From NCBI GenBank assembly GCA_013538855.1, contig JABXJS010000211.1, forward strand, positions 1 to 33,814: DNA of 33,814 nucleotides, in the 5' to 3' direction. The position numbers and the translations under genes are program-made. Origin of the DNA: Herpetosiphonaceae bacterium (lineage in GTDB: Bacteria > Chloroflexota > Chloroflexia > Chloroflexales > Herpetosiphonaceae). Position 1 is the first letter of the stretch, and each line of letters starts with the position of its first letter. Below, piece by piece: positions 11,623-15,734 of this stretch. The notes under the pieces were generated by a model. The model did not search any database. It was given only the letters and a program-made list of their open reading frames with translations, and was not told the DNA's origin.

Positions 11623-11666
11623 CGCTGGTGGCAGTTTGCCATCCAACCTTCAAGGAGGAATCAACC

Positions 11667-12803
11667 GTGGACTATGATTTTGCAACGCGAGCTATTCACG
11701 TGGGCCAAGACCCAGAGACGGTGACCGGCGCAGTGATTGTGCCAATCTATCAAACGTCAACCTATGCGCAGCAGGCGGTTGGGCAGCACTCAGGCTATGA
11801 GTACTCGCGCACCGATAATCCAACCCGCACGGCGCTGCAGGAGTGCCTGGCCTCGCTTGAAGAGGGGCGCTACGGCCTGGCGTTCGCCTCGGGGCTGGCC
11901 GCAACCACAACGCTGCTGCTGATGCTCAAGGCTGGCGACCACGTGGTGTGCGGCGATGATGTGTATGGCGGCACCTATCGGCTGTTTCAGCGCGTGATGA
12001 CTGACCATGGCCTCAGCTTTGACTTTGTTGACACCAGCGATCCAGCTAGCGTCGAGGCCGCCATCCGCCCAGAAACGCGCCTGATCTGGCTAGAGACGCC
12101 GACGAATCCGCTGCTCAAGCTGGCTCCAATCACGACGATCAGCCGCCTGGCCCGTGAGCGCGGCGTGCTCACAGTCGTTGATAACACGTTTGCCTCGCCC
12201 TACAATCAGCGCCCGCTCACCCTGGGCGCGGATATCGTGGTTCATAGCACGACCAAGTATCTCGGCGGCCACTCCGATGTGGTTGGCGGAGCAATCGTCA
12301 CCTCCAATGATAGCGTGTACGAGCGCCTGAAGTTTTTGCAGAACGCCGCCGGCGCGATTCCGGGGCCGTTTGATAGCTGGCTGGTGCTGCGCGGCCTGAA
12401 GACGCTGGCGATTCGTATGCGCGAGCACGAGCGCAATGCGCAGGCGGTGGCGCGCTTTTTGAATGAGCATACGGCAGTCGAGCAGGTGATCTACCCTGGC
12501 CTGCCCTCGCATCCGCAGCATGCGCTGGCCCGTGAGCAGATGCGCGGCTTCGGCGGCATGATCTCGATTATTCTGCGCGGCGGCCCCGAGGCGGCCCAGC
12601 GCATGGTGGAGCGCACGAAGCTGTGGACGCTGGCTGAAAGCCTCGGTGGCGTCGAGTCGTTGATCGAGGTTCCGGCCGCGATGACGCACGCAAGCGTCGC
12701 TGGCTCGAAGCTGGAGGTGCCCGCTGGGCTGGTGCGCCTATCAGTTGGCATCGAGGACAGCAACGACCTGCTGCGCGATCTGGAGCAGGCGCTCGAAGCG
12801 TAA
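11667..12803 (+). CDS. Cystathionine gamma-synthase/lyase family PLP enzyme
   Basis: A 378-residue PLP enzyme of the Cys/Met metabolism family. The PLP lysine is Lys197 in HSTTKYLGGHSD. Other family marks are YEYSRTDNPTRTALQ, the Gly-rich ASGLAATT, LIWLETPTNPLLK, DNTFASPY and the C-terminal SLGGVESLIEVPAAMTHAS. Members make cystathionine from an acyl-homoserine and cysteine (MetB), or cleave cystathionine or methionine; sequence alone does not separate these, so no symbol is given. The start is GTG at 11667, 7 nt after a strong AAGGAGG; the frame extends upstream without a better start. The TPM gene begins 58 bp later and may be partly co-transcribed. Confidence 0.92.
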   Translation: MDYDFATRAIHVGQDPETVTGAVIVPIYQTSTYAQQAVGQHSGYEYSRTDNPTRTALQECLASLEEGRYGLAFASGLAATTTLLLMLKAGDHVVCGDDVYGGTYRLFQRVMTDHGLSFDFVDTSDPASVEAAIRPETRLIWLETPTNPLLKLAPITTISRLARERGVLTVVDNTFASPYNQRPLTLGADIVVHSTTKYLGGHSDVVGGAIVTSNDSVYERLKFLQNAAGAIPGPFDSWLVLRGLKTLAIRMREHERNAQAVARFLNEHTAVEQVIYPGLPSHPQHALAREQMRGFGGMISIILRGGPEAAQRMVERTKLWTLAESLGGVESLIEVPAAMTHASVAGSKLEVPAGLVRLSVGIEDSNDLLRDLEQALEA

Positions 12804-12861: not shown

Positions 12862-13878
12862 ATGAGATCTCAACGCTGGGTTGGGCTAATCCTGGCCCTG
12901 CTCTGTTGGTCGCTGATGGCACCATTAGCGCTGGCGCAAAGCCAGTCGGTGATCATCGACGACCAGGCGGAAGTGCTGGACGATGCACGAGTCACAACGG
13001 CGGCGCAGCCACTGGTAAAAGAGGGTGCGCAGGTTGTGGTGATCACCGTGCAGAGCGCAGGCGGCGATGGCCTGGCCTATCTGAACCAGCGCTTGAGGAG
13101 CCTCGGGATAGCCTCCGATACAAACAATCTGCCAGCAAGTACCTTGGTCTACTATGTGGCCATGGACGATCGGCTGAGCTATATCTACGGCGGCTCACAG
13201 TTTCGCACGGCGCTCGCGGACCAGGTTGAGACGTTGCGCCAAGACTATCTCAACCCTGGTCTAGCGGCAGGCAATCCGACCCGTGGCTTCGTCGATGTGC
13301 TGCAGGGCACGGCGAAGATCATCAGCAACCCGGTTGCGGCGCGCACTGAGTCAAGCGATTCTGGCTCGGGCAGCGGCCTCATCTGGCTGGTGGCGCTGGT
13401 GGCGGTGGGTGCACTGGCCTTCTTTGTGGTGCCATCGCTGCTCAATCGGCGCAGCCAGTCCAAGCAAGCGGGCGATGTTTTGGCGCAGACACGCGCGCGC
13501 TTCGACGCATCACGCAAGAGCGCCGGCGCAGCGATCGCCGACCTTGGCCGCCAGATGGAGGATGCCAGCGCGAAGCAAAAGTTCGATAGCGTGAGCTATC
13601 CGTCAACACAGGCCCAGGAGCTAGCCCGCCGCCATACCGCCGCGCTGCAGAAGTTTCGCGACATCCAGGTGAAGTTCGATGATGTCGAGGAGCGTATGGC
13701 CGCCATGCCCCAGCCGCGCGTGATCGACCTAGAGGCAGCGGCCGGAGCCTACGATGAGATCAAGCAGCATGCCCAGGCGATCAGCGCCGACCTGAACGAG
13801 ATGGATGTGCTGCGCAAGGAGCTCGATAAGATTGCCGCACAGGTGCCACAGGAGGTAGATCGCGCAAAAAAATCCTAA
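12862..13878 (+). CDS. TPM-domain membrane protein, zero-frame part (338 residues)
   Basis: The product has a signal peptide (1-26, ending ALAQ), a TPM domain at about 29-155 (VIIDDQAEVLDDARV, VVVITVQSAGGDG, YYVAMDDRLSYIYGG), a short Gly/Ser linker, a membrane helix near 173-194 (IWLVALVAVGALAFFVV), then coiled coil. AAGGAA precedes the ATG. Reading stops at TAA 13876-13878, directly after the heptamer A AAA AAA (13866-13872). The family architecture seen in other bacteria continues into a long coiled coil and a Gly-rich tail, which here lie in the -1 frame next door. A -1 slip on the heptamer gives a continuous protein of about 957 residues without any stop. TPM proteins are extracytoplasmic with varied roles (photosystem repair in plants); the role here is unknown. 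Confidence 0.85.
   Translation: MRSQRWVGLILALLCWSLMAPLALAQSQSVIIDDQAEVLDDARVTTAAQPLVKEGAQVVVITVQSAGGDGLAYLNQRLRSLGIASDTNNLPASTLVYYVAMDDRLSYIYGGSQFRTALADQVETLRQDYLNPGLAAGNPTRGFVDVLQGTAKIISNPVAARTESSDSGSGSGLIWLVALVAVGALAFFVVPSLLNRRSQSKQAGDVLAQTRARFDASRKSAGAAIADLGRQMEDASAKQKFDSVSYPSTQAQELARRHTAALQKFRDIQVKFDDVEERMAAMPQPRVIDLEAAAGAYDEIKQHAQAISADLNEMDVLRKELDKIAAQVPQEVDRAKKS
13850..13872 (+). promoter_or_regulatory. Candidate -1 frameshift site with upstream SD-like stimulator
   Basis: AGGAGGT (13850-13856) is followed by 9 nt and then A AAA AAA (13866-13872), read in the zero frame as GCA AAA AAA TCC TAA. This matches the known layout of the E. coli dnaX frameshift signal (SD-like element about 10 nt before A AAA AAG). 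A CCAG-CGCG-CTGG hairpin with flanking TGCT/AGCA pairs occurs 22 nt downstream, rather far for a stimulator. A lost base in an original A8 run is the main alternative. Confidence 0.5.
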
Positions 13879-15734
13879 CCGACGCTGCCGGGATGCTCCA
13901 GCGCGCTGGCGGAAGCACTGCGGTGCTCAGCCAAGCGCAGCAGCGCATCCAGCAGGCGGAGGCAAGCCTCCAGCGCCACGAGTTTCAAGCGGCGCAGGAG
14001 TCCGCCCAGGCAGCGTCGGCGATTGTAGTTCCGCTGCAGCAGCGTCTGCAGCGCATTGATGCCCTTGGTCAACAGCTTCAGGCGGCTGAAGATGCGCTAG
14101 CGCGCCTGCCAGCGCAGCAGGCGGCGACTGTGCGCGATCTGGTCCAGCAGGGCCGCGCTGCGCTGCAGCAGGCCACGCAGCAGCTGAGTCAGCCCGAGAG
14201 CGCCGATGCCACCCTGAACGAGGCTGAGTGGCTGGCCAATCACGCCTTTAAGCTTGGCCCCGAGTTTGAGAAGACCAAGCGCGACCTAGGCCAGCGCACC
14301 GCAGCGCTCCAGGAGCAGCTGCCCGCCTTTGAGCAGCGCCTAGAGCGCGGCCGTCAGGAGTTTGATATTGTCGATGAGTTCGCGCCATCGTCGTGGAGCG
14401 ACATTCGCGGCAATGGCTCCGAGGCGACCGCCGCTGTGCAGCAGGCGCAACAGCTGCTCGGCGACGCGACTACCGCCCTGCAGAACCCCGACAGCGCCGA
14501 CTGGAATGCGCTGCTGGAGAATGTTGAGACGGCTGAGGCGCGGCTGAAGTATGCCGATCAGCTGCTCAGCGTCATCACCACCCGCCTGCACGATCTGCGT
14601 GAGGCGCAGAAGAAGGCGGCCAGCGAGGTCGATACGGCCCAACGTGATATCAAGCTCGGCTGGGGCTATGTGCGCAACAACGATGCTGATGTGGGCAAGG
14701 AGCCGGAGGTGGCGCTCCAGCAGGCCGAGACGCTGCTGAGCGAGATTCAGCAAGCGATTGCCGCTGGGCGTCCAGACTGGCTCCAGGTGCTCCAGAAGGC
14801 CGCCCAAGTGCGCCAGCTTGCCGATAAAGCCTTGGCTGGAGCGCGCTCGGAGGTTGAAAACATGAATGCGCTGCGCAAGCAGGTGCAGGATGTCCAGCAG
14901 ACGGCGAGCGCCGAGCTGAACAAGCTGACCAACTTTGCACAGCTGCATCCGGTCGAGGTCACAGCGGCGCAGCGCCAGTCGATCAACAGCCTAGGCCAGC
15001 TCTTCCAGCAGGCGCAGCAGGCGGTGGCCAACGCTGACCGCAGCGAGGAAGATGCGCGCATCGCCGCGCTGAACCAGGCATTTAAGCAGTTCTCGACGGT
15101 GACAGAGCAGGCGCATCCGCTCTACGCTGGTATGTACGAGAGCTTCCAGAAGCTCGAGACGCTGCGCACCGAGGCCAACACGATGACCCAGACCGCACGG
15201 CAGTCGCTCGACAACACAGCGGCCTGGTATAACTCCTATGGCCATGTGCTGCCAGCCGGCTCGCAGGGCCGCGATCTGCTGGCGCAGGCGCAGCAGCAGT
15301 GGCGGCCGTTTAATCCGCAGGCTAGCGCGGACGAGCTGCAGCGCATCATTGATGCCAATAAGCAGGCGAACACCCTCGCCCACCAGGCGGCTGAGATCAT
15401 CCAGAAGGCGGCGCAAACCTACCAGAACCAACATCCCCAGCAGCAGGGCACCGACTTTGGCGATCTGCTGACGGGCATGGTCATTGGTCAGATGTTAGGC
15501 GGCGGCCAGCGCCATCGCTCCTGGGGCGGCGGCTTTGGCGGCGACTGGGGCCATCGCAGCGGCGGCGGCAGCTCTGGCGGCGGCAGCTTCGGTGGTGGCG
15601 GTGGTGGTATCTTCGGCGGCGGCGGCGGCTTTGGCGGCGGCGGCAGCTTCGGCGGCGGCGGTGGCGGCTTCGGCGGCGGCGGCGGCAGCTCTGGCGGCGG
15701 CGGCGGCAGCTTTGGCGGCGGCGGCGGCTGGTAA
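13872..15734 (+). CDS. TPM-domain protein, -1 frame part: coiled coil with Gly-rich tail
   Basis: This frame is open from the slippery site; its first ATG is 13893 and has no Shine-Dalgarno. The residues across the junction (AKK, then ILTDAAGMLQRAGG) read smoothly into coiled coil, as if one protein. About 540 residues are Ala/Gln/Glu-rich helical segments with near-periodic repeats (SQAQQRIQQAEASLQRHEF, LQQAETLLSEIQQAI). After a GDLLTGMVIGQMLGGG segment the last 80 residues are almost all Gly, Ser and Phe and end in Trp. This Gly-rich ending is common in TPM-domain proteins with this layout. It is either the C-terminal two thirds of a frameshift product, an interrupted pseudogene, or a separately reinitiated protein (ATG 14 nt after the TAA). 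Confidence 0.8.
   Translation: MLTDAAGMLQRAGGSTAVLSQAQQRIQQAEASLQRHEFQAAQESAQAASAIVVPLQQRLQRIDALGQQLQAAEDALARLPAQQAATVRDLVQQGRAALQQATQQLSQPESADATLNEAEWLANHAFKLGPEFEKTKRDLGQRTAALQEQLPAFEQRLERGRQEFDIVDEFAPSSWSDIRGNGSEATAAVQQAQQLLGDATTALQNPDSADWNALLENVETAEARLKYADQLLSVITTRLHDLREAQKKAASEVDTAQRDIKLGWGYVRNNDADVGKEPEVALQQAETLLSEIQQAIAAGRPDWLQVLQKAAQVRQLADKALAGARSEVENMNALRKQVQDVQQTASAELNKLTNFAQLHPVEVTAAQRQSINSLGQLFQQAQQAVANADRSEEDARIAALNQAFKQFSTVTEQAHPLYAGMYESFQKLETLRTEANTMTQTARQSLDNTAAWYNSYGHVLPAGSQGRDLLAQAQQQWRPFNPQASADELQRIIDANKQANTLAHQAAEIIQKAAQTYQNQHPQQQGTDFGDLLTGMVIGQMLGGGQRHRSWGGGFGGDWGHRSGGGSSGGGSFGGGGGGIFGGGGGFGGGGSFGGGGGGFGGGGGSSGGGGGSFGGGGGW

Follow-up and report, generated by a model that had tools for sequence, protein, structure and literature searches.

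The analysed window, 33,814 nucleotides in length, comes from a draft genome in the family Herpetosiphonaceae, where it forms one contig; the nearest named relatives are Herpetosiphon. It carries a gene for a TPM-domain membrane protein with its coding sequence divided over two reading frames, and the following features belong to it:

12862..13878, + strand: zero-frame open reading frame giving the short product, 338 aa (translation)
12958..13314, + strand: TPM domain, residues 33-151 (Pfam PF04536; Foldseek)
13375..13443, + strand: predicted membrane helix, about residues 172-194 (hydropathy)
13850..13856, + strand: Shine-Dalgarno (SD)-like AGGAGGT, 9 nt 5' of the heptamer (sequence, resampling)
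13866..13872, + strand: slippery heptamer A_AAA_AAA (sequence, conservation)
13872..15734, + strand: -1 frame of 620 codons, encoding the part of the long product beyond the junction, with the helical array and the Gly-rich tail
13876..13878, + strand: zero-frame stop TAA, one codon past the heptamer (sequence)
13879..13889, + strand: 5' arm of the long-range helix, CCGACGCTGCC, 6 nt past the heptamer (pairing, covariation, RNAalifold)
13890..14008, + strand: loop of the helix, 119 nt in the window, with no folding of its own conserved in the alignment
14009..14019, + strand: 3' arm of the helix, GGCAGCGTCGG (synonymous constraint, pairing, covariation, RNAalifold)
15504..15731, + strand: Gly-rich tail of the long product, predicted to be disordered

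The short product consists of an N-terminal hydrophobic segment or signal, the TPM domain, one membrane helix and ~135 aa of helices; three long helices are predicted in this form, and the last of them ends at the heptamer. The TPM domain, recognized in a first-pass annotation of the sequence, scored 38.5 bits against the PF04536 (TPM_phosphatase) profile (curated cut-off 22.1), and Foldseek matched this part of the protein to the structures BA41, Psb32 and TLP18.3. Helix-bundle matches in the PDB fold search were not significant, and structural support is thus confined to the TPM part. A -1 slip at the heptamer would add about a dozen predicted helices and then the Gly-rich tail, giving a long product of 957 residues; both product lengths, and the 620 codons open in the -1 frame to 15734, agree with those first annotated. 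The gene is not dnaX (DNA polymerase III tau/gamma), as it encodes a TPM domain and no other Pfam family.

At the junction, the zero frame reads GCA AAA AAA TCC TAA. The first-pass annotation had correctly placed AGGAGGT nine bases before the A7 run and had put the stop directly after the heptamer; the stop in fact lies one codon later. The window contains two A7 runs, where 0.4 would be expected, and the exact AGGAGGT-N9-A7 pattern occurs twice in the 6.3-Mb genome. Relatives of the gene were sought in 82 genomes of the order and 158 of the class, and full-length relatives were confined to the order Chloroflexales, apart from one weak match outside it; a search of named genomes with the ORF2 protein matched only four Herpetosiphon. 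Loci were read for 56 relatives. The heptamer region is present in 45 genes, the window's included; these 45 were chosen for bearing the heptamer, and loci without it were kept apart. A_AAA_AAA in the zero-frame phase (X_XXY_YYZ) is found in 44 of the 45 genes, with the phase constant throughout.

Synonymous sites at the signal are constrained in the relatives. In a synonymous comparison of the 45 genes, the three codons of the heptamer were among the four most constrained of 139 conserved columns (AAA 45/45, AAA 45/45 and GCA 40/41); the remaining pair of conserved lysine columns were mixed AAG/AAA (29:16 and 28:17). Several GC-rich relatives use almost no AAA in the rest of the gene, AAA and GCA being rare codons, and the chance probability of the site was ≤0.0002 in several GC-rich genomes. 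The constraint profile has two peaks, one at codons 333-343, covering the heptamer and about six codons after it, and one at codons 384-387, ~50 codons downstream; these correspond to the two arms of the long-range helix. A third, weaker stretch of constraint lies at about 14385-14417 of the window (about codons 509-519 of the long product). The genome has a tRNA-Lys(CUU), which would explain AAA instead of AAG as the second codon, since AAG would then be a poor choice at that position. The tRNA loci read in G000 did not include a tRNA-Lys(UUU), and a pattern search for it found nothing and is uninformative; AAA codons require this tRNA, which is probably either absent from the draft or one of the matches left unread.

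The helix starts 6 nt after the heptamer in every frame-broken genome, within the roughly 5-8 nt at which a 3' structure would be placed. It has 11 bp in the window and 10-14 bp in 43 of the 45 genomes, compared with a mean of 1.4 and a maximum of 4 in synonymous shuffles, and it closes a loop of 119-133 nt, mostly 131, among the relatives. In the alignment, 96.8% of the helix cells were paired and 6 of the 11 pairs showed two-sided changes, with 38 compensatory cells vs 10.0 in shuffles (reached in 0/500). Pairing fell from 97% to 25-54% when the arms were slid by 1-3 columns. RNAalifold, unprompted, predicted exactly the helix 13879-13889/14009-14019 and nothing else, and single-sequence minimum free energy folds contained long-range pairing in 44/45 genes. 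No conserved structure was found inside the 119-133-nt loop in the consensus fold, and Rfam has no family at the frameshift site. One genome, G017, has the heptamer with a perfect helix of only 7 bp, and the helix is gone in the four relatives lacking the heptamer that were examined.

The SD-like element was conserved in a looser manner. Pairing at ≤-7 kcal/mol was found in 44/45 genes, whereas synonymous resamples gave a mean of 22.7 and a maximum of 29, and the mean pairing exceeded that of all 100/100 resamples. The expectation that AGGAGGT would be conserved thus holds for an SD-like stretch beyond what protein and codon usage require, not for the exact letters.

Two frame states occur among the 45 genes. 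In 28 genomes (families f1 and f4), the A7 run and the frame break are both kept, as the first-pass annotation had asked of relatives: the long protein lies in the -1 frame, open for about 570-629 codons, and the zero-frame stop is always one codon past A_AAA_AAA (TAA in 12, TGA in 10 and TAG in 6). In the other 17 (f3, one f4 genus, G055 and G059), a single-base difference in the spacer puts the long protein in frame 0; the A-run is kept, and a -1 slip reaches a stop within 2-6 codons, although such stops are not individually improbable, as 9-42% of positions in the same genes are equally near one. This swapped state, like the long-range helix, goes beyond what was first annotated. The proteins align without gaps through the junction in both states, and the frame change must therefore fall exactly at the heptamer. 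On a tree calculated with the junction masked, four state changes were counted (bootstrap range 4-4), and G059 and G077, which belong to the same genus, differ in state; the frame state thus switched at least four times.

Some loci depart from this pattern. In family f2 (L079, L086, L087 and L088) the orthologue is short-only, ending for example in ..TTRLRE*, and has no heptamer, and in the f3 genera g11, g20 and g19 (L090, L084, L089 and L092) the genes are long-only, with heptamer and helix both lost; each form can therefore stand alone. Among drafts, G065 has A6, G069 has A8 and G055 has A10 without the helix. The A10 run of the last (locus L060) reads GCC AAA AAA AAA ATG, and possibly marks a change to transcriptional slippage, by analogy with the proposal made for dnaX genes with long A-runs.

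Slippage of RNA polymerase on the A-run (programmed transcriptional realignment) would also join the two frames, as a fraction of the mRNAs would gain an extra A and so code for the long protein. A-runs can slip during transcription, this mechanism has been proposed for two-ORF dnaX genes whose runs are longer (PMC3711429), and the A10 run of G055, where the helix is absent, would suit it. For the gene as a whole we consider it improbable, since the run is exactly seven A in 44/45 genes, short of the usual 8-9 (PMC3711429), since the covarying helix lies 3' of the run and is untranscribed while the polymerase sits on it, and since the SD-like element has no part in transcription. In addition, the run is kept in the phase suited to tandem tRNA slippage, and in the known case of stem-assisted slippage, a Roseiflexus IS, the stem is 5' of the run (PMC5009743).

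Even less probable are two overlapping genes, in which ORF2 would be started by termination-reinitiation with the SD-like element serving its start. An ATG does overlap the A-run and stop in the genus Herpetosiphon and in G053 (AAAAAAATGGTAA), and the window has an ATG at 13893. The start is not conserved, however: 19 of the 28 frame-broken genomes have no ATG, GTG or TTG in the first ten -1-frame codons, which disfavours reinitiation, and the swapped genomes retain heptamer and helix without any need for it. Loss of one base from an A8 run, by recent deletion or by a sequencing error (a pseudogene or artefact), which the first-pass annotation had said would explain the same picture without regulation, can be set aside almost entirely as a general account: homopolymers are error-prone and the draft G069, alone among the relatives, has A8 and one frame through the junction, but its gene is broken by another frame break upstream, the long ORF2 encodes a conserved protein, heptamer and helix are under synonymous constraint, and close and distant relatives share the A7 run and the identical break (28 genomes of many genera, including the finished CP000875.1 [L033/G007]).

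Very probably, then, this TPM-domain membrane-protein gene of Chloroflexales contains a dnaX-type cassette for programmed -1 ribosomal frameshifting; conservation, helix and covariation, all read from comparative sequence data, lend strong support to the programmed frameshift originally suggested. We infer that ribosomes slip at the heptamer in the following manner. A ribosome would arrive at GCA AAA AAA with the 16S rRNA anti-SD able to pair with the upstream AGGAGGT and with the long-range helix standing 6 nt downstream, and a fraction of ribosomes would continue in the -1 frame after both lysyl-tRNAs had re-paired with the mRNA one base further back. In the window and 27 relatives, ribosomes that do not slip would make the short protein, with its TPM domain, membrane helix and first helical bundle, and those that slip would make the long protein, extended by the helical array and the Gly-rich tail. 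In the 17 swapped relatives, frame 0 would give the long protein and slippage the short one. As these genomes keep heptamer and helix even though the long form needs no slip, the short protein appears to be wanted as well. Selection may accordingly act on the short:long ratio, perhaps for mixed assemblies of a membrane-anchored scaffold, and a working idea is that in such a helical scaffold the short form would act as a cap or spacer for the long form. We also favour, with considerably less assurance than the cassette itself, a history in which the order retained the cassette with its long-range stem, and single-base changes in the spacer repeatedly exchanged the product that is made by slippage. 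If this is true, selection would be on the short:long ratio itself, with the ratio near balance where the swap is tolerated.

The three parts of the E. coli dnaX signal (A_AAA_AAG, an SD-like element and a stem-loop) are found here in the same order and with similar spacing, and in both systems a short and a long product share their N-terminus. The genes are nevertheless unrelated, the heptamer of the TPM gene is A_AAA_AAA, and its 3' stem closes a loop of more than a hundred nucleotides, whereas that of dnaX is a local hairpin. The slip is required for the short product in most dnaX systems and for the long product in those of some bacteria (PMC3711429, PMC5009743); the TPM gene differs in having both orientations within one order, with at least four switches. 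Elements of the IS3 family (IS911, IS3411) likewise combine an A-rich slippery site with an elaborate 3' structure, and in the IS3411 type the pairing partners lie 44-104 nt downstream (PMC5009743). The TPM gene, in contrast, has no transposase and a single long closing helix, and no apical-internal loop pairing of the IS3 type was conserved in its alignment.

Poly-A heptamers with a -1 break are also known from cellular genes, including those of Herpetosiphon, in chlD-type Mg-chelatase and other GeneTack clusters (PMC3711429), which are different genes from the one described here. The main text of PMC3711429 makes no mention of TPM, DUF477, Roseiflexus or coiled coils; an A7 (A_AAA_AAA) cassette of another gene gave only 10% frameshifting in E. 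coli (PMC3711429). YdjH-type proteins resemble the long product in having a TPM domain, membrane association and a long coiled coil or low-complexity tail, and YdjH, a TPM protein with a long coiled coil, is a partner of PspA elsewhere; they differ in that the passages of PMC11237479 on which this comparison draws describe no frameshift in such proteins.

No earlier report of this gene as recoded was found in the literature searched. Well-supported programmed frameshifts are known from few bacterial chromosomal genes beyond dnaX, prfB and mobile elements (PMC5009743). The TPM cassette offers a covarying stimulator together with about 45 natural variants, and forms a natural experiment in which the long product would be slipped in some genera and unslipped in others, and in which the evolution of frameshift efficiency under a swap of roles becomes testable. 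Two forms of a membrane protein with a TPM domain would also seem to be needed, and genes of this kind are likely to be misinterpreted by gene callers and pseudogene filters.

Several observations concern the neighbourhood of the gene and similar proteins elsewhere, with features as follows:

L119 3576-5702; L120 1095-3233: ~710-aa coil proteins of genus g6
L122 15712-16644; L124 4779-5705: gene with a TerB domain in the vicinity of the frameshift gene
window 11628-12803; L125 7698-8831; L126 6895-8046: Cys/Met PLP-dependent enzyme gene

The small-genome f3 genus g6 has ~710-aa proteins with a membrane helix and coils and no TPM domain; a relationship to ORF2 was tested and was not convincing. 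The genomes G041, G034, G049 and G064 have another TPM gene, at a distance of ~12 kb from the one with the frameshift. The TerB-domain gene is found in two f4 genera, and a lipoprotein-like gene is located directly upstream of the frameshift gene in L122 and L128. In f1 and f2, the gene directly upstream encodes the Cys/Met PLP-dependent enzyme, a Pfam assignment made on the window copy only.
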